NCBI GenBank assembly: GCA_905182525.1
Contig: CAJJBV010000003.1
Span: forward strand, 124,001-188,000
Direction: 5' to 3'
Source: Cryomorphaceae bacterium
Lineage (GTDB): Bacteria > Bacteroidota > Bacteroidia > Flavobacteriales_D > Parvicellaceae
Length of the DNA stretch: 64,000 nt
Positions 31,541 to 44,348 of this stretch are shown piece after piece. The first letter of the stretch is position 1; each line of letters begins with the position of its first letter. The notes beneath the pieces were generated by a model, which worked only from the letters and a program-made list of their open reading frames with translations, made no database searches and was not told the origin of the DNA. A program made the translations under genes and the position numbers.

Positions 31541-34500
31541 ATGAAAAAATTATACTCTTTAATTATCCTTTTTATTTCATCAATAACTTTTTTTAGTGCA
31601 CAATTAGCTACAATTAATATAACTACTTCTGGCGGGTCGTACCCTCTGAAAAGTGGGTTAGTATTACTGATGGTATTGATGGTGCCGGAAATCTAATTTG
31701 GGCGCAAGGCAATAGTACTCCAGGTGTTTTTGCTGGGAGTGGTTTAATTAATCAAGATATTCAAATTGCTGCTGGAACTTATTATGTTAATTGCTATGAT
31801 ACATATGGTGATGGTTGGGACGGAACTAGTATTTCTGTTACTTCTTATGGAGCTGTTTTAGCAAGTGGAACACCTGGAAATCCACGGTACAGCTGTTAAA
31901 CTTGAAGCATCTTACCAAATTGTAGTGGCTGCTCCTCCTTCTTGTTTACCTGTAACTGGTTTAACTGCTTCAAATTTGACATCAACTTCCGCAAATATTT
32001 CTTGGACCGCTGGCGGAACTGAAACTGCTTGGAATTTTGAATACGGTTCTGTTGGCTTTACTCAAGGTACTGGTACTCTTTCTGCCCTTACTTCAGCAAA
32101 TACTTCATTGACAGGTTTGACAGCACAAACACAGTACGATGTTTATGTACAAGCAGATTGTGGTGGTTCAACTAGTTCTTGGAATGGACCTTTTACTTTT
32201 ACCACTCTTTGTTCAGCAGCAGCTTCACCATATTTAGAAGATTTTGATGCTGGATTTCCTGTTTGTTGGTCTCAACCTACAACAGATGATTTTAACTGGA
32301 CCTTAGACGCTAATGGTACGGGGTCTTTTGGAACAGGACCATCAGATGATATTTCAGGTGGAGGAAATTATATGTATATTGAAGCGTCTGGAGGAACAAA
32401 TGGAAACGAAGCTGTATTATTATCACAAGAAATTGATTTGTCAACTTTAGCTAATGGTCAGTTAAGATTTTTCTCTCACATGTATGGTTCAGCAATTAAT
32501 ACTTTAACGGTTGATATTTCTTTAGATGCAGGTGCTACTTTTACCCAAGTATTTACTAAAACTGGAGATCAAGGAAACCAATGGAATGAAGAGTTAGTCA
32601 ATATTTCAAGCTACACTGGAAATGCTATCTTTAAGATAACCGCTTCTCAAGGATCTGCTTTCGCGGGTGATATTGCAATTGATGATTTTGAAATTAGAAA
32701 TAATACTGTTTGTTCTCAAACTACTGCACTTGTAGCTTCTAATTTATCAGCTAATACAGCTGATATTTCATGGATTGCAGGCGGTTCAGAACCTTCCTGG
32801 AATTTTGAATTTGGTGCAAATGGTTATACTCAAGGTACTGGCGGAACTGCTTCAACAGTATCTTCTTCTGCAACAATTGCGGATAATCCAAACTCATTAT
32901 TTGCTAACGGTCCTGCTACTTGGCCACATGTATTAACTGCTTGTTTAGCAAATCAAGGTGCTTCTTCCCAACTTGCTCAAACTGTTACTATAAATGTTAC
33001 TAGTCTTCCTTCGGGAGGAACTAATTACCAAAAATACAAGACTTTAGCTACTGGAAACAATCTTAGCGGTGCTATTCCGCTAACACTTGGTCTTAATACT
33101 CTGTCTGTTACTGCTGTTACATATGATAGAACTGTGAAATTTAGATTTGATAACGATGGTTTTTCATTTGACGAAATTACATTAAATGGAGTTTCAGTTT
33201 ACTCATCTGCATTCACTTCTTTATCAGGCCTAACTCCTAATACATCTTACGATGTTTATGTTCAAGCAGATTGTGGAACTACTGGATCAATTACTGGACA
33301 AAGTAATTGGACTGGACCAGTGACTTTTTTAACTAGTTGTAACCCAGTTTCTGCCCCTTTTAGTGAGGACTTTTTAAGTGGAGCACTTCCAACATGTTGG
33401 CTTCAAAGTACACAAACTCCAGCATGGTTATTTTCATCAACCTCTGCAATTTCTCCTGGATACGATGCTGCATCTAATGGTAGAACTCCAGGAACTTACG
33501 CATGGATAGATTTCAATAACGGTATAGGTCCAGCAGGTGATTTACGATTACCAGATATTGATGTATCTACACTTACTTCTACAGAGCTTTCTTTTGATTA
33601 TTTTAGTGATCTGACAACTCTCCGCAGTTTTGGCGGTGCAAACGCAAATGCACAGCCTGCTAGACTTATTGTTGAATATAAAGGGTCAAATGGCACATGG
33701 ACATCATCCGATACACTTCAAGTTTCTGTTAGCGGTTGGAATAACTACGCTTTTGATTTAACAGGGTTAGATAATAATAACATACTATCTATTAGACTTA
33801 GAGCTGAGAAAATGGATTATTTTGCTAATTATGGTGATATTTTACTTGACGATATTTTAGTTAGAGAAACACCAAGTTGTTTTAATTCTACCTCATTATC
33901 TGCTTCAAATATATCTGCAACAACTGCAGATATTTCTTGGACAGGAAATGGTTCAAGTTTTAATATTGAATATGGCACACTTGGTTTCGTACAAGGAACT
34001 GGTAACACTGTTGTAGTTAATTCAGCAACCATAGCTACCCAAAGTTCATTATTTACTTCAGGTTCTGCTGCATGGCCACATGTCTATGCTCTAACACTAA
34101 CTTCGGATGGTGTTTCTAGTCAGTCTGCTCAAACTATTTCAATAAATGTTACTAGTTTACCATCAGGAGGGGCTAATTGGAGGCTAATTAAACAAAATCA
34201 AACCACTGGAGCTAGTTTTGTCCCTAACAGTAATGGACAAGCGCTAGTATTAGGTCTTAACACACTTACTGCTCCTGCATCTACATGGACAAGGTATGTT
34301 AAAGCTCAATTTGATACGGATAACGTTGGAATTAGTTTGATTAGTGTAAATGGCAATTCTAATTATACTTATTCTGGTTCGTACTCAATTAGTGGTTTAA
34401 GTGCTTCAACTGATTACGATTTTATAGTACAAACTGATTGTGGTGCTCAAGGAACTTCTGGATGGTCTTCTCCTTTTACTTTTACAACAGCTTGTGCAGC

Positions 34501-37500
34501 AGCATCTTCACCATATTTAGAAAATTTTGATGCAGCAGTATTTCCTGTTTGTTGGACTCAATCTACAGCAGATGATTTTAACTGGACATTAGACGCTAGT
34601 GGTACTCCATCTGGTTCTACTGGTCCATCAGATGATATTACTGTTGGTGGAAATTATATGTATATTGAAACTTCTTCTTCAAATTCAAATGGCGATTCAG
34701 CTGTGCTATTATCACAAGCAATTGATTTGTCAGCTTTAACAATTCCAGAACTAAGATTTTACTCTCACATGTATGGTGCAACAATTAATACTTTAACTGT
34801 TGATATTTCTACAGATGCGGGTACAACTTTCACCCAAGTATTTACTAAAACTGGAGATCAAGGAAACCAATGGAACGAAGAACTTGTAGGTCTTTCCAAC
34901 TACAGTGGAACTGTTTTATTTAGGATAACCGCTTCTAAAGGATCTTCTTACACTGGAGATATTGCAATTGATGATTTTGAAATTAGAGAAGCTCCTCTTT
35001 GCTCAGCTCCTACTTCGCTTTCAGCTTCTAATTTAACAACTAATTCTGCTGATCTTTCTTGGACTGCTGGTGGAACTGAAACTGCTTGGAATTTTGAATA
35101 TGGTCCTGTAAACTTTTCTCAAGGTTCTGGTACTTCATTTGCACTTACTTCGGCCAATACTTCGTTAACTGGTTTAGCTGTAGACACTCAATATGATGCT
35201 TACGTACAAGCAGATTGCGGAAGAGGAAATACATCTATTTGGGTTGGCCCTTATACATTTAGTACCCTACCAAATCCTGTTTGTTATTATACCTTAAATA
35301 TGATTGACTCATATGGTGACAGTTGGAATGGTGGTTCTATTGATGTTTCGATAAATGGTGCTTACGCTGCAAGTTTTTCAAACCCTTCGTCAGCTGGAGC
35401 CGGTCAAATTTATACGGATTCAATTGGTGCATTTACCGGTGATTCTGTTAGTTTTTCTTGGACTTCTGGTAGTTATGACAGTGAAGTTTCATTTGAAATT
35501 TTAGATCCTAATTTTACTTCTTTAACAGCAGGCTATATTCCTGCTCCGTCTGCAGGCTTTTTCTTAGCTGACGCAAACTCTCCATCAATTTGCGCTCCTC
35601 CTTCATGCCCAGATCCAGTTTTATTAACTACTTCTAATTTAACAAATAACTCAACCGATATTTCTTGGACCGCTGGTGGAACGGAAACAGCTTGGAATTT
35701 TGAGTACGGTCTTGTTGGATTTACTCAAGGAACTGGTACTACTTCAGCCCTTACATCAGCAAATACTTCTTTGACTGGTTTAACTGGGAACACTGGATAT
35801 GATGTTTATGTTCAAGCCGACTGTGGAAGCGGTGATGTTAGTGGATGGACTGGTCCTTTTAACTTTACTACAGAATGTGATATAGTTACAACATTCCCAT
35901 ACACAATGGATTTTGAAAATGGATTTGATTGTTGGGATGTTCTAGATTTAGCTAGTGCGAATACTTGGCAGCTTAATTCAGGTTCTGGTGTTAATGCTAG
36001 TGTATCTGCACGAATCCAATATTCATTTGGTGCTCACGACGATCATTTAATATCTCCTAATTTTTCAGTAACCGCTAATTCTTCAAGATTTAGTTTTAAT
36101 GCAAGGAATTTTAATTTAAGTTATCCAGAAAAATTTGATGTCTTAGTTTCTACCACTGGAAAAGCTGCTGCGGATTTTACAGACACTTTAGCTACTGGAG
36201 TTATTCCTCCTACTTCTTATGATTATTATCAATATGATTTATCATCATACATTGGTCAAGATGTTTATGTTTCTATTCATGCAACTGAAAATAACCAGTA
36301 CTATCTCTACGTAGACGATGTAACTATCGATGAATATGTAAGTAAAACAATTATTCAAAGTGAAACTTCGTGTGACACCTATACTTGGTCAGTTAATGGA
36401 ACTTCTTACACATCTGATACAAACTTGACTGTATTTAGCCCTGCTGTTGATGTTGCAGATGCTGATAGTACATTCATTTTAAATCTAATGGTTAATTATA
36501 GTACATCTTTTACTGAAACAATTACAGCTTGTGATAGTTTATCTTGGAATGGAAATACATATTTCGCTAGTGATTCTACAGCAACCGCATCATTACTAAC
36601 TTCTAGCGGATGTGATAGTATAGTTACTCTTAATTTAACTATTAACAACAGTTCTCTGACATCAGAAACAGTTACCGTTTGTGATACATATGATTGGCAA
36701 GGTAATACTTACACTACATCTGGAAACTATTCTTACTCTGATACAACTTTCAATGGGTGTGATAGTACTATAAACCTTGTTTTAACAGTGAATTACTCAA
36801 GTAGCTCGTTAACTACAACTACTGCATGTAATTCTTATAGTTGGAAAGGAACTGTTTTTGATACTTCAGGAATACAAGTAGCTCCTGCATCAACTAATTT
36901 TGCTGGATGTCCGCAAGTCGATTCATTGGATTTAACAATTACCACAATTGCAACTTCTAGATACTCAAACTGCTTGTGATTCTTACAGTTGGAATGGAAA
37001 TCCTTACACAACTAGTGGAACTTATTATTCTAGTAGTGCATGTGTAGATACACTATATCTTACCGTTAATGCATCAAGTTCTAGCAGTTCTACCGTAGCG
37101 GCATGTGATTCTTCCGTTTGGAATACAATAACATATTTCACATCTGGAACCTACAATGTATTTACAACAAATGCTGCAGGTTGCGATAGTATAGCAACCT
37201 TGAATTTAATTGTGGGTAATTCTGCAACGAATTCAGTAACAGTTTCTGAATGTGATTCATATAACTGGAATGGAAATACTTACACATCAAGTGGTGTTTA
37301 CTCTGGTGTATTCCAAACTAGTACTGGATGTGATAGTACTGTGAATCTTGTATTAACTATCAATTCTTCAAGCAACCAGTCAGTTACTGTATTTAGTTGT
37401 GATGAGTACGTATGGGATGGTGTTAGTTACACTGCAAGTGGAGATTACACAAATAATTACACAACAGCAAGTGGCTGCGATAGTACAGTTACACTAGTTC

Positions 37501-39442
37501 TTACTCTAGGAACAACTGCTGCTCCATTTACTGAGGGATTTGATATTAATTTCCCTAATTGTTGGTCACAGCCTGATTCTGCTGACGGTGAAGATGCTTT
37601 AGATTGGACAAGAAATAGTTTTGCAACTCCATCTCAAGGAACTGGTCCTTCAGATGATGTAATTGGTGGTGGTCACTATATGTATATTGAATCTTCTCTA
37701 CCTGCACAACATGGTGATAATGCAGTAATGTATACAAATTTAATTGACATAAGTTCATTAACATTTCCTGAATTAAGGTTCTTTACCCATATGTATGGTG
37801 AGTCAACAGGTTCTTTAACCGTTGAAATACAAGGTGAAAATGATACAGTACCTACATCTATTTTCACAAAATCTGGAGATCATGGTGACTTATGGGTTCA
37901 AGAAAGAGTATCATTTACTTCTACTTCAAACCTTGTTAGATTCAAAATTACTGGAACATTAGATTCTAACGCTATTGGCGCGGTATGGGCTGGTGATATG
38001 GCAATTGATCAGTTTGGTGTCAGAGAAGCTGTCCCTAATGATCTTGCAATAATTGCTGCTGATGTTAATTCAGATTGTGAATTAACTACTACAGAACCAA
38101 TTGAATTATGGGTTGTAAATAATGGTTTAGTTGATCAAGGTAATTTTAAACTTAGCTATTCTATAAATGGTGGCGCACCAGTTCTTGACTCTATTAACCA
38201 ATTGATAAATATTGGCGATACCTTAAGACACATCTTTAATGCAACTGCGGATATGAGCACAGATGGTATTTATGATATTGACTTTGCATGTCTATTAGCT
38301 GTAGATGCTGATGTAACTGACAATGTTCTGAATTTCGTTGCTGAAAATTATACAACACCTGAAGATGCTGTTACCTTAGGTGACACTATTTGCTTCGTTG
38401 GTGATGTTGGTCAGATTTCTGCAATTAGTGATGGATGGATATATTGGTATGATTCACTTGTTGGCGGTAGTTTAGTTGGTGAAGATGACACACTATATGT
38501 TACGCCATCAGCAACAACTTCTTACTTTGCAGAAGTTTCTGCCTATGATGGTTTTGAAGAAGATTTTGAATCTTACAGTCCTGGTGATTTAATTGCTCAA
38601 TCATCTAATGATTGGAACACATGGTCTGATCCTAATGGTGGAGCAGATGATGACGCAGAAGTAACAGATTTTGTATCTGCTGGAGGTTCCAATTCACTTC
38701 ACTTAGATGATGATAATGGTGATGATATAGTTCTTCCACTAGGAAATTCATATTCAACTGGAAATTTCTATTTTGAAACTGATATGTATATAGAAGCAGA
38801 AGCATATTTTAATTTCCAAGAGGATGTTGTTAATGGAGATGCATGGGCGTTTGATTTATACTTTACTGAAACTGAAATTAAGGTAGAAATTGATGACTCA
38901 ACTGTTTTAACGGTAGCATATAGTCCAAATAATCCTCTAGGTGCACCAGTCTGGTTTAACTTTAGGTTGGAAGCTGACTTGGAATTATGGACAATGGAAG
39001 ATGCTTAAAGATGCGTGTCTCAATAGGTGCTTTCTCTATGAGTGATCCAATATCTTCTGTCAACTTTTGGGCCAGCCTTGGAAACAACTATTATATTGAT
39101 AATGTTGAATGGGGTGCTTGGGGAGGCGATGCTTGTAGATCACTTTCTAGAACTGAAGCAGTTGTTGTATTAGACAGTTGTAACACGACCACTGTTAGTG
39201 AAGTATCTTTTGAAAACTTAAAGATATATCCTAACCCAAATAATGGATCATTTACAATAGCTAATTCAGAGCTTATTAATAGCGTTGTAATTATGGATTT
39301 ACAAGGGAAAGTTGTTTATAGAAATGATAATTTAAATCTATATAACTTAAATGTTAATTTAGAGAACCTTGATAGAGGAATGTATATGATTAATATTATT
39401 TCTGAAAATGAAATAACAACAAAATCAATAATTATAAACTAA
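31541..39442 (+). CDS. Giant T9SS-secreted Fn3/MAM-repeat protein A (frameshifted)
   Basis: A surface or secreted protein of about 2,630 residues reconstructed from several frames. The signal peptide is MKKLYSLIILFISSITFFSA. A YGDGW-type module follows, and then alternating Fn3-like units (SWTAGGTETAWNFEYG) and MAM/choice-of-anchor-J-like units (GPSDDISGGGNYMYIEAS). Two of the Fn3 units carry a nested module. After these come CDSYxW repeats (36360-37512), a CARDB-like domain, a LamG-like domain and a type A T9SS tail. Long open segments are 31865-36979, 36948-39008 and 38987-39442. Indels are inferred near 31643 (lost C), 31882 (extra C), 36959 (extra base) and 38990-39025. Homologous repeats resume in the new frame each time. 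An adhesin or matrix role is inferred from architecture. Confidence 0.82.
32841..33210 (+). repeat. Nested module inside Fn3, copy 1
   Basis: An Fn3 unit starts (SWIAGGSEPSWNFEFG) and ends normally (LSGLTPNTSYDVYVQADCG). Between these halves, about 120 residues are inserted, including SLFANGPATWPHVL, TVTINVTSLPSGG and LGLNTLSV. The insertion keeps the frame of the host domain. The module family is not one I recognise. Confidence 0.65.
34002..34375 (+). repeat. Nested module inside Fn3, copy 2
   Basis: A second, diverged copy of the same insertion in the next Fn3 unit of the same protein. It shares SLFTSGSAAWPHVY, TISINVTSLPSGG and LGLNTLTA with copy 1 and lies at the same place in the Fn3 fold, before LSASTDYDFIVQTDCG. 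The two copies differ at many positions, so the insertion is old relative to the near-identical repeats elsewhere in the array. Confidence 0.65.
36360..37512 (+). repeat. Tandem CDSYxWNGxxYxxSG repeats
   Basis: About eight consecutive units of some 45-50 residues, each with a C-D-S-Y/L-x-W-N/K-G motif, a Tyr/Ser-rich middle, and GCDSxxxLxLT(V/I)N at the end. Examples are SCDTYTWSVNGTSYTSD, TACDSLSWNGNTYFAS and VCDTYDWQGNTYTTSG. Two cysteines per unit suggest a disulfide-linked strand repeat. This repeat type is common in large Bacteroidota secreted proteins. The indel at about 36959 falls inside it. Confidence 0.75.
39215..39442 (+). other. Type A T9SS sorting domain of protein A
   Basis: The C-terminal 75 residues contain LKIYPNPNNGSFTI, VVIMDLQGKVVY and LDRGMYMINII, ending in KSIIIN. 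This is the TIGR04183-type sorting domain recognised by the type IX system in the outer membrane and usually cleaved on export. Confidence 0.9.
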
Positions 39443-39596: not shown

Positions 39597-42500
39597 ATGA
39601 AAAAAATTTTAATCTTATTAACGTTAATTAGTTTATTTAACCGTGGCAAGAGCCAGTACTGTATCAATGGGGGGCCTACAGATGATCAGGACTCTAATGT
39701 TGAAAGCGTAGAAATTATTGGTGAAAATAATACAAGTATAAATTATGTTGGTTGTCCTGCTGTACTTGGAATTGAAGATCAAACATCTCTTTATGTTGAT
39801 TTAAATTCAGGATCTTCATACACCTTAGATGTTCTGTTTGGAACTTGTGATGATAATTTCGCTAGCGTTGGAGAAGTATGGATAGATTTTAATCAAGATG
39901 CAATTTTTGATACTTCAGAATCTATCGGCTCATGGGCTGGAACTCCACCTGTTTCAATATCTAACTTTACTTTTACAGTTCCTCCAAACTCTGTTAGTGG
40001 ATATTCTCGTATTAGAGTCATTCAACTCGAAGGAGGGTCTTTACCTATAGACCCATGTGCATCATTTCAATATGGATCAGTTGTTGATTTCACTGTTGGT
40101 ATAAATACTTCTTGCTCGAGTATTTCTGCACCATTTATTGAAAATTTTAATAATTTTTTTCCTGTTTGCTGGGTGCAAGATTCAACAGATGAATTTGATT
40201 GGACATTAAATAATGGAGGAACCAACTCGGCAAACACTGGACCAAGTGATGATGTTTCTGGTTTGGGTAATTATATTTACACTGAAGCCTCTAATCCAAG
40301 AGATGATGGAGATAAAGCTATTGTATATTCTGGTTCTATTGATGTTAGTAATTTAGCAAATCCAGAATTAGTTTTTTATTATCACATGTATGGATCTGCA
40401 ATAGGTGATTTAGATATCGATTTATATAATGGAAATAATTATTCCAATATTTTTAGTTTAAGTGGAGACCAAGGGAATCAGTGGATTCAAAAACGAATCT
40501 CTTTTGGTACTGGAGGCTTGTCCTTAACAATTATAAAATTTAGAATTACTGTAACTTTAAGTGAGGATTCAAATGGAGATACGTGGCCAGGTGACATTGC
40601 AATTGATAATTTTGAAGTAAGAGAAAGTCCTTCTTGCCCGGAAGTTCTTTATCATACTGTTAATACTTCTAACTCAACAATATCTAGTACTGAAATTGAT
40701 TGGACAGCTGGAGGAAATGAAACTGCTTGGAATATTGAATACGGACCATTAGGATTCACTCAAGGAACAGGGACAACAGTTTTTTCTTTAACAAGTAATC
40801 CGTATACATTAAATGGACTTAATTCATCATCAAGCTATGACTTCTATATACAAGCTCTTTGTAGTGTTGGTGATCTTAGTTTATGGTCCGGACCTTACTC
40901 TTTTTCAACTTCATGTGGTGCAATTTCTGCTCCATATCTTCAAAATTTTGATAATTCTTTTCCTGTCTGTTGGATACAAGATTCAACAGATGAATTTGAT
41001 TGGACGATAAATTCAGGGGCAACTCCATCAAACCAATTTGGAACAGGCCCAACTGATGATATAACTGGTGGTGGAAATTATATATATACAGAAGCCTCTG
41101 ACCCAAGAGATCAAGGTGATGAAGCGATGATATATTCGGATTCGATTGATATTAGCAGTTTAACCAACCCAGAACTAAATTTTTATTATCACATGTATGG
41201 TGATGATATGGGAGATTTAGATATTGAAATATTTGATGGAACTAGTTACGCTAATATATTTACTTTAAGTGGGGACCAAGGAGATCAGTGGTATGAACAA
41301 AATATTTCTATAAATAACACATCGAACGTAGTGATTTTTAGATTAACAGGAACAATTGGTGGTGATTATTCAGGGGATATTGCCATTGATAATTTTGAAG
41401 TTAGAGAAGCACTTTCATGTCCTAAAATTCTACTTTCTTCTGTAAACGCATCAAATATTAGTTCTTCAGGTGTAGAACTTTCATGGACTGCAGGGGGGAA
41501 TGAAACTGCTTGGAATATTGAATATGGTCCTTCTGGGTTTACCCAAAATACAGGAACTATGATCTCAGTTTCTTCTAATCCCTATACGATAAATGGATTA
41601 AGCTCTTCAACGACTTATGATGTTTATATTCAAGCTGTTTGTAGCGCGAATGATTCAAGTTTCTGGTCTGCTCCTTATACATTTTCAACAATTTGTGATG
41701 TAAATACAGCACCCTATTTTGAAAATTTTGATTCAGCTTTCCCTATATGCTGGGTGCAAGAAATAAACGATGAATTTGATTGGTCACTAAATTCTGGTCC
41801 TCCCCCAACACTTCAAAATGGATTTCAAACTGGACCAACTGATGATATAACTGGTGGAGGAAGTTATATTTACACTGAAGCCTCTAATCCTAGAAACCTA
41901 GGAGATGAAGCAATTTTATTTACCAATTCAATTGATATAAGTAGTTTAACTAATCCTGAACTTAATTTTTATTATCATATGTATGGCGACGAAATGGGAG
42001 ATTTAGATATCGAGCTTTTTGATGGAGCTAATTACGCTAATATATTTACTTTAAGTGGAGACCAAGGAAATCAATGGTTTCAAGTTAGTATTCCTATTAC
42101 AACTTCATCAACCATAATTAAATTTAGAATAACTGGAACCATTGGGGATGGCTGGTCAAGTGATATGGCTATTGATAACTTTGAAGTTCGAGAAGCTCCC
42201 ACATGTCCTACTCCTACAAGCTTATCATTTAATAATTTAACTTCAACATCAGTAGAAATATCTTGGAATTCAAGCGTAAATGCAAATTCATGGATAATAA
42301 ACTACAACGGGAATATCATCAATACTAATTCTAACCCTACAGTAGTTAATAATCTAACTCCAAGTACTAATTATAGTGTTTTTGTCACTTCTATATGTCC
42401 TAACAATGATACTAGTTATAATTCAGCTCCAATAACTTTTACAACTGGTTGTCCAGCTAGAATTGCTCCGTTTTTAGAAACTTTTGACACTATTTTTCCT

Positions 42501-44348
42501 GTTTGCTGGTCTCAGGAAGATGTGTCGGATGATTTTGACTGGACTTTAAATGATGGTGGAACTAATTCAGCTGATACTGGCCCATCTGATGACGTAACTG
42601 GTGGTGGAAATTATCTTTACACTGAAGCTTCTAACCCAAGAGTAGATGGCGATTTTGCAATTATGTACAGTGAAAATATTGATTTAACAAATTTAACTAA
42701 TCCAATGCTTCAATTTCATACACATATGTACGGGTCGGCAATTGGTGAATTACAAATTGATGTTTTTGATGGAAATAATTATGTGCCTATTTTTAACAAA
42801 ATTGGAGAAAAAGGAGATTTTTGGGAGGAAGAAAATATTCTAATTGATCCTACTTTGTCTTCTGCTAAATTTAGAATAACTGGAATCTTGAGTGTTGACT
42901 CAGCTGGAGATACTTGGCCGGGTGATATTGCGATTGATGAATTTCGTGTTTTTGAAGCTATTGCGTCAGATTTGGAGCTTTATAAAGGTTACTCTAAGTT
43001 CTGGATGTAGTTTGTCGTCTAGCGAGCAAGTATCGATAGTAATTGTAAATAAAGGAATTAATCCTCAAAGTAATTTTAACGTAAGCTATAAATTAAATGG
43101 TGGAGCTCCAGTTTCTGAAATAGTAACTACAACTATTAGCTTTGGAGACACTCTAAATTATACTTTTAATACAACAGCTGATTTGAGTGTAGATGGTGTT
43201 TACAATTTTGAATTTGAGACACAACTAAATAATGATCAAGTTCCATCCAACAATATATTTACTAAAGATGAAGAAAATTTCACAAGTCCTGCTGCTGCAC
43301 TTACTGTCAACGATACTATTTGTAAAGGTGAACCTTTAACTCTTCAAGCAACATCTAACCAAGGATTAATCAATTGGTATAGCGATGCTGCTGGGACGAT
43401 TCCTTTGAATGGAAATATCGTAATCACCTCCACCTACTACTACTACTACTTATTATGCAGAAGTACAAGGTTCTGAATTTTATAAAGATGACTTTGAAAG
43501 TTACAATTTTGGTGATTTCATTGCCCAGTCTTCATCTTATTGGACTACAATTTCCGGAAATGGAGGTATTCAAGACCAGGATGATGCAAGAATTTCTAGT
43601 TCTCAAAGCTCTTCTGGAATTAACTCTGTCTATTTAAATGAGATAAATGATGACAACTTATTTTTACTTTTTAATCAAGATATAAATGAGGGCATAGTTG
43701 AAATTAATATGAATTTAAGGGTAGAAACTAGTGCTAATATTAATTTTCAAAACTCTACAACACCTGGTTCTACAGAAATTTTTGAATTAAGAATGAATTC
43801 GGGAATTCTGGAATTCGACATAGGAACTAATGTTCTGACTGCTTCATATCCTGGAAATAATACCTGGTTTAATCTAAAAATAGTAGGGAATCTGAATTCA
43901 TTATTTTGGGTAATTTATATCGATGGTATTCAAATTTCGGGAGCTAATATTCCAGGAGCTAACCAAATTGGATTGGTAAACTTTACCACTAACTCCCGGG
44001 GATGCTTACTATATTGATGATGTTGAGTGGTATGTAATTTCGGATGATGATTGTTATAGTTCATTAACAGCACTAACTGTTTTTGTGGAGCCTTGTCTTT
44101 CAATTTCTGAAAAAATAAATTCTGATATTCAGCTATTCCCTAATCCAACCAGCGGTATAATTAATTTTATATCAAGTTCTGAAATAAAAAATATAGAAAT
44201 TGTAGATTTTCAAGGTAAAATAGTAATTAAAGAAAACTTTAATTCTTTAAATGCTGAAATGGATTTAGAAATGCTTCAAAAAGGAATTTACTTTTGTAAT
44301 ATTTTAACTTCCGAAGGTTCTAATTATAAAAAAGTAATTATTCATTAA
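39597..44348 (+). CDS. Giant T9SS-secreted GEVED/MAM/Fn3 protein B (frameshifted)
   Basis: A secreted protein of about 1,580 residues. A signal peptide (MKKILILLTLISLF) is followed by a GEVED-type domain (VWIDFNQDAIFDTSE). Four MAM/choice-of-anchor-J-like units then alternate with three Fn3-like units, from about 40110 to 42965. A CARDB-like domain (NKGINPQSNFNVSYKLNGG), an Ig-like strand, a LamG-like domain and a type A T9SS tail follow. The first open segment stops at 43010. The right frame then resumes after inferred single-base insertions near 42980, 43427 and 43995-44001. The frame open from 43451 onward is the coding one; the frame opening at 43455 is spurious. It follows the terminator after protein A. 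Confidence 0.82.
44121..44348 (+). other. Type A T9SS sorting domain of protein B
   Basis: The C-terminal segment IQLFPNPTSGIINFIS, IEIVDFQGKIVI and LQKGIYFCNIL, ending VIIH, is a TIGR04183-type sorting domain. It lies only 8 bp before the start of protein C, so proteins B and C are probably cotranscribed. Confidence 0.9.

Follow-up and report, generated by a model that had tools for sequence, protein, structure and literature searches.

A beta-sandwich module nested in Fn3 domains and other host folds of Flavobacteriales and phages

INTRODUCTION

Domain insertion is usually regarded as an old, fixed architecture. It has been described as common, with small guests (median 115 residues) in larger hosts and 169 families that occur only as inserts (PMC13114784). 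The module described here differs from such A1-B-A2 insertions in that one narrow family serves both as a stand-alone tandem unit and as an insert in several folds, and in that occupied and empty sites are visible among the relatives of its hosts.

Phage Ig-like domains are small beta-sandwiches that occur singly or in tandem and are thought to bind carbohydrates. BACON domains, small beta-sandwich domains of Bacteroidota surface proteins and of phages, are also thought to be carbohydrate-binding, according to a paper on their occurrence in phages (PMC6949934). Like both, the module is a small beta-sandwich, single or in tandem, of Bacteroidota surface proteins and phages; however, it is repeatedly nested in unrelated domains, it gave no BACON match in Pfam among 16 family members, and in viruses it sits in a tail nozzle and in a small protein whose gene, by our reading, lies near capsid-like and portal-like genes. 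The jelly rolls CBM35, CBM6 and CBM22 are likewise beta-sandwiches, and CBMs are among the weak structural matches of the module, but none of these matches, in sequence or in structure, was significant. The nozzle concerned is the T7-like tail tubular protein B (loci L040-L047); for a Vibrio phage, tail tubular proteins have been reported to bind a host receptor (PMC7241545).

The stretch of DNA analysed here (the window) comprises 64,000 nucleotides from a Cryomorphaceae bacterium (GCA_905182525.1, contig CAJJBV010000003.1, positions 124,001 to 188,000). An earlier note on this DNA had proposed that two Fn3 units of one protein are split at the same site by an insertion of about 120 residues, which shares motifs between the two copies, belongs to a family that it did not recognise and could be a ligand-binding head.

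RESULTS

Two Fn3 units of one protein are interrupted by a nested module

The profile PF00041 matched the whole ORF at 31865-36979 with E 1.5e-22. Fn3 units 1, 4 and 5 of this ORF are plain, and units 2 and 3 are split after the third strand (Table 1). The proposed splitting was thus borne out for both units by sequence, and for unit 2 also by a structural model, with the same loop interrupted in each. The interrupting stretch measures approximately 115-120 residues with its linkers, in agreement with the proposed length, and the profile-matched domain within it measures 103 and 107 residues. The motifs were found in both inserts, namely WPHV 5-mers (32918 and 34070), INVTSLPSGG (32990 and 34142) and LGLNTL (33086 and 34250), and the two copies are 45% identical.

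We aligned each split unit with the three uninterrupted Fn3 units of this protein and compared the scores with those of shuffled sequences. Split unit 2 scored 236-273, compared with 71-84.3 for the best of 100 shuffles; two of the three alignments placed a single 115-residue gap with zero host residues lost, and the largest gap in the third was 59 residues. For split unit 3, the scores were 202-230 (shuffles, 75-89), and the gap, of 77-92 residues at a cheap gap cost, was inconsistently placed. With the insert left in place, PF00041 gave 18.9 bits for split unit 2, under the 25-bit cut-off, and 25.7 bits for split unit 3.

AlphaFold2 prediction of positions 32702-33340, from 72 rows, which was one of the checks that the earlier note had suggested, gave one Fn3 made from both halves around a nested domain (mean pLDDT 77.2). 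The insert was mostly above 90, and the Fn3 halves ranged from approximately 47 to 70 per ten-residue block. When the model was compared with solved Fn3 structures using VIA-align, the alignment extended over residues 3-213 with only approximately 87 residues paired (3tes, Z 9.7, rmsd 2.3), and six strands were visible, three on either side of the insert. Both halves of unit 2, although of low confidence, are predicted to build one Fn3 from which the insert bulges out. Two consecutive complete domains at unit 2 were rejected on the basis of this model, and no match was obtained to any known Fn3 subtype with a long loop.

The host gene is not intact in the assembly. By our reading, a signal-peptide-like start lies at approximately 31541 in a different frame, and the two ORFs that continue the protein (36948-39442) contain a MAM domain (profile match, E 2.3e-16) and, both recognised by eye, further CDxYxW repeats followed by a type IX sorting-tail-like stretch. 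The frame breaks across 31541-39442 were taken as indel error or decay. The neighbouring gene at 39597-43476 is likewise split over frames, which suggests indel errors in the assembly. The host is probably a secreted adhesin exported by the type IX route. A run of CDxYxW...GCDS repeats at 36365-39008 belongs to the same protein; this repeat type hosts the module in L050, L051 and L060, and on inspection none of the window's own repeats was seen to be interrupted by it.

Table 1. Features of the host protein in the window, and settings of the module at other loci
Feature	Window positions or loci	Strand	Basis and remarks
ORF, 1704 aa: five Fn3 units, MAM / choice-of-anchor J domains, two nested modules, CDxYxW-like repeats	31865..36979	+	
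Fn3 unit 1, uninterrupted	31943..32215	+	Comparison copy
Fn3 unit 2, first half	32717..32854	+	Three strands ahead of the insert
Nested module copy 1 with linkers	32855..33211	+	Profile-matched domain 32897-33205; edges +/- ~10 residues
Fn3 unit 2, second half	33212..33340	+	
Fn3 unit 3, first half	33884..34009	+	
Nested module copy 2 with linkers	34010..34378	+	Profile-matched domain 34049-34369; edges uncertain
Fn3 unit 3, second half	34379..34495	+	
Fn3 unit 4, uninterrupted	35000..35275	+	
Fn3 unit 5, uninterrupted	35606..35881	+	
Two more ORFs in other frames	36948..39442	+	36948-39008 and 38987-39442; by reading, the remainder of this protein
Tandem stand-alone copies behind stretches reading as signal peptides			By reading
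Fn3 hosts	Window, L012, L054		By reading; Fn3 above Pfam cut-off in L054
CDSYTW repeat hosts	L050, L051, L060		By reading
Lamin-tail domain, two sites	L048/L049; L072		By reading; Pfam under cut-off (L048, L072)
Beta-helix protein, two sites	L052/L053/L055/L058; L073		By reading; Pfam above cut-off in L073
HYR-type domains, three sites	L061; L069/L089; L093/L100/L104		By reading; Pfam above cut-off in L061
T7-like phage nozzle	L040-L047		By reading and structure-sequence match
Small phage protein	L034-L039		By reading
Unnamed host	L097		By reading

The module is a beta-sandwich without a name in the libraries searched

Insert 1 alone was predicted by AlphaFold2, with 82 family rows, as a beta-sandwich with a mean pLDDT of 94.3. 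The family has no name in Pfam or NCBIfam: profile searches with the inserts alone yielded zero matches in Pfam for either one, and the single NCBIfam match fell far under the cut-off (11.6 of 931 bits). When 16 family members were submitted to Pfam, the matches were scattered and weak (best E 0.0045, in one member); they included CBM_35_2 in two of the 16 (best E 0.023) and Ig-like families in single members (Ig_VWA7, E 0.0045; Big_13, E 0.037). The PDB sequence searches returned one chance-level match each (E 1.3 and 1.7). Foldseek gave a best E of 0.017 on PDB, with none below 0.001, and of 0.0046 on BFVD. The best VIA-align Z was 6.0, with unrelated folds tied; CBM structures reached Z of approximately 5-6, and the Eph receptor, MAM, PirA, GOLD and others scored like them. 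The predicted fold may thus be called jelly-roll- or CBM-like in a broad, vague and unspecific sense, and we claim neither a named fold nor a new one.

In our best reading, the insert is an extracellular module with a beta-sandwich fold, approximately 105 residues long (about 115-118 with linkers) and unnamed in the libraries searched. An intein was also considered; neither insert had a Pfam match, and the stand-alone tandem copies count against this reading. No description of the module was found in open-licence papers, which is weak evidence of absence.

Relatives occur in Flavobacteriales and on viral contigs

A profile search yielded 204 copies in 122 six-frame ORFs, a redundant set in which some loci overlap; 141 copies of at least 86 residues were distinct. 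The source sequences were mostly MAG contigs, and the sample series behind the loci is presumably of marine origin. Within the window's order, 32 of 399 sampled genomes had relatives, and these came from 9 of 70 genera. The phylum and class samples contained one positive genome each (1/395 and 1/295), each time the window's own, and no spread beyond the order was found in them. At E < 1e-20, the window's own genome contains the two window copies only, with one further weak match (E 0.064).

Scanning the GTDB collection with a pattern returned 68 loci. Of these, 63 were titled Flavobacteriales, Bacteroidetes or families thereof, two bacterium only, and three Euryarchaeota. The supposed archaeal members (L057, L070 and L106) are doubted, as they look mislabelled or misbinned: L057 has an ORF length, domain positions and E-values identical to those of L021, from a genome of the window's order, and in the tree L106 falls with rows of Flavobacteriales and Crocinitomicaceae. 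L007 belongs to a genome of the window's family, and its module is identical in sequence to that of L054, a Crocinitomicaceae record, which suggests that the window's order is Flavobacteriales. On viral contigs, IMG/VR contributed 14 loci with the module. The plasmids searched gave no match, nor did 50,697 phage records at E 0.01 or better with two queries; 2,527 of these records hold a nozzle match.

The module occurs in several unrelated hosts

Fn3 is only one setting of the module, which elsewhere occurs by itself in tandem or nested in other folds, including those of phages (Table 1). We assigned the host labels in the tree, and most of the sites, by our own reading, and several were compared with profiles or alignments. 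The type IX sorting tail exceeded its cut-off in three of eight host proteins scanned (L051, L054 and L072) and fell under it in L052. In L072, the Pfam lamin-tail match lies far from the insert, and of the three HYR sites the alignments bore out only that of L061. The nozzle of L043 matches the solved P-SCSP1u nozzle in two parts, residues 3-68 and residue 275 onward; the module occupies 121-215 between them. Against HTVC041P, the left nozzle flank aligned well (223-234; shuffles, at most 55), and the right flank scored barely above its shuffles or not at all (81 vs 76, 65 vs 55 and 63 vs 64); the nozzle site accordingly rests on matches of the L043/P-SCSP1u type and on reading. Taken as a group, the hosts look secreted or virion-borne.

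The small phage protein, for example that of L036 (4297-5127), is encoded between genes that we read as capsid-like and portal-like. Despite its 273 relatives in IMG/VR, it had no match in the 50,697 phage records.

Related hosts show occupied and empty sites

Two homologous beta-helix proteins are each intact at the other's site. L053 and L073 align over residues 34-688 of L053 with a score of 1701 (best of 50 shuffles, 101); apart from small gaps close to the beginning, the alignment has two large ones. Residues 156-270 of L053 (115 residues) are extra between residues 147 and 148 of L073, and residues 222-339 of L073 (118 residues) are extra between residues 344 and 345 of L053; the module lies inside each extra stretch.

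Among the best 80 of the 273 relatives of the small phage protein (L119-L198), the module was present in six, on the contigs of L034-L039, and absent in 74. Both flanks were recognised in 76 of these 80, and their spacing was 139 residues in the six occupied proteins and 23 (68 proteins) or 24 (two proteins) in the empty ones, a difference of 116 or 115 residues. We also aligned the DNA of 10 of the 74 empty relatives; in eight of these alignments the occupied sequence had exactly 348 bp extra and was missing none of the host's bases, and in the other two the gap was placed differently (largest pieces, 282 and 176 bp).

A two-module cassette in HYR-type hosts shows its edges in DNA. L061 and L069 are 88.6% identical over 656 bp and at background level outside, so that the DNA likeness of the cassette, which lies in two gene contexts, stops at its edges; L061 and L067, on contigs of one MAG, are 95.1% identical over 551 bp, where the contig end stops the comparison. 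The occupied and empty HYR forms (HYRa) differ by one 231-residue gap holding two modules, and L072 and L078 by one 111-residue gap. Of the further empty-site alignments, only these two were used: for the CDSYTW, L108 and nozzle sites the gaps were scattered, and HYRb and HYRc aligned with empty copies of their own.

A lamin-tail query without the module matched 58 of 199 genomes, many over the whole length. In the window's own genome one such match runs unbroken from end to end, whereas G045 and G114 matched in two pieces. A two-piece match in the window's own genome was rejected as an insert, as the 19 bases between the pieces represent a frame break. Both lamin-tail comparisons with the own-genome locus scored under shuffles, the ORF having possibly been wrongly chosen. 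Several lamin-tail-like matches lie near each other in that genome (G000:C1:198849-204686).

Nested copies of different hosts group together

The tree comprised 83 modules and 103 columns, so that many of its branching points lack resolution; its bootstrap had not converged. One starred clade of 12 rows (99/98) contains nested copies only, from Fn3, CDSYTW, lamin-tail and beta-helix hosts. The nested copy of L073 groups with the tandem copies of the adjoining gene (98/97) on a long branch. The nested or linear label was found to change at least 10 times on the tree, and at least six times when trust is limited to starred branches; such counts cannot tell gain from loss. L054 lies apart from the window copies, and the four Fn3-hosted copies as a single clade were not rejected (p-AU 0.263), so repeated or independent entry into Fn3 is not established.

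Cysteines just before and just after the domain were both present in 93 of the 141 distinct copies, both absent in 41 and single in only seven. From sequence, the pair probably forms a disulfide closing adjacent module ends. Both window copies lack the pair. By our reading, a linker near TTIxAQTPxLF occurs in 10 of the 12 rows of the starred clade, the exceptions being the lamin-tail rows L048 and L049, and it may serve the same end.

DISCUSSION

Nesting of the module is observed in sequence and in the model of Fn3 unit 2, as are several host folds, occupied and empty sites and cassette edges in the DNA of the relatives. We consider it rather probable that it is an extracellular CBM-like module that has spread as in-frame DNA and that acts as a displayed ligand- or glycan-binding head. 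Because the flanking cysteines occur jointly, the module ends are likely close together, which would probably give the module an in-frame seat in a surface loop and leave the host fold unbroken. In the window protein, two Fn3 units carry it between the third strand and the next; in Flavobacteriales and in phages, the same module sits in several unrelated loops or forms tandem arrays by itself. Its spread may be due to illegitimate recombination, or to copies taken out of tandem arrays within the same genome. The spread itself is well supported; its direction, gain or loss, is unproved at most sites. A broader claim, which we would sooner doubt than assert, is that of a universal plug-in: a cassette of approximately 348 bp that enters surface loops of folded extracellular proteins in frame without deleting host residues, that is mobile among genes, bacterial lineages and phages, and whose ends are closed by a disulfide or a common linker, which would make it acceptable to many loops.

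Binding of a ligand or glycan is the likeliest role, at about an even chance, judging from fold and setting. Residues Q37, G74, R87 and N106 are kept in 82 of 82 module rows, and T58 (81/82), N61 (77/82), K57 (75/82) and W64 (57/82) in most. This conservation of polar and aromatic positions across hosts goes beyond what a passive spacer would need, although folding could account for part of it. A mere structural spacer or stabiliser, bulking loops and shielding surface proteins with no specific ligand, is therefore unlikely in our estimation. It would fit the variety of settings, for which a single ligand is not obvious, and also copy 1 of the window, which carries Q, T and N in place of the family-typical R54, N61 and W64; these departures, together with the absence of the cysteine pair from both window copies, count against a binding head.

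The in-frame differences without loss of host residues, the presence and absence of the module among related phage proteins, and the similar cassettes found in two gene contexts within a single MAG would suit a near-selfish domain that spreads since many loops tolerate it, not for the benefit of the host protein. However, its residues remain conserved after insertion, the hosts read as extracellular or virion-borne, which suggests selection for display, and the three cassettes checked had no conspicuous terminal repeats or further end signals, only short scattered repeats, which counts against our own reading as well. We accordingly regard this explanation as quite improbable. An origin in situ as an elaborated Fn3 loop, with later exchange out of Fn3, would accord with the single Fn3 clade that the tree did not reject, but it is barely credible for a module that stands alone in tandem behind signal-peptide-like stretches, is nested in unrelated folds and is predicted by itself as a confident fold.

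The family provides a traceable case of a surface module common to Flavobacteriales and viruses. Occupied and empty sites of one narrow family make the entry of a domain into a domain directly open to study, with such pairs found twice in one host family at different loops and also among related phage proteins. The hosts furthermore amount to a natural catalogue of loops able to take in a guest of approximately 116 residues, drawn from Fn3, beta-helix, lamin-tail, HYR and phage nozzle folds. At L053 (1-7319), two genes carrying tandem modules of another subtype flank the beta-helix gene that holds the nested module, and at L073 (1562-5655) a four-module array adjoins the interrupted beta-helix gene.
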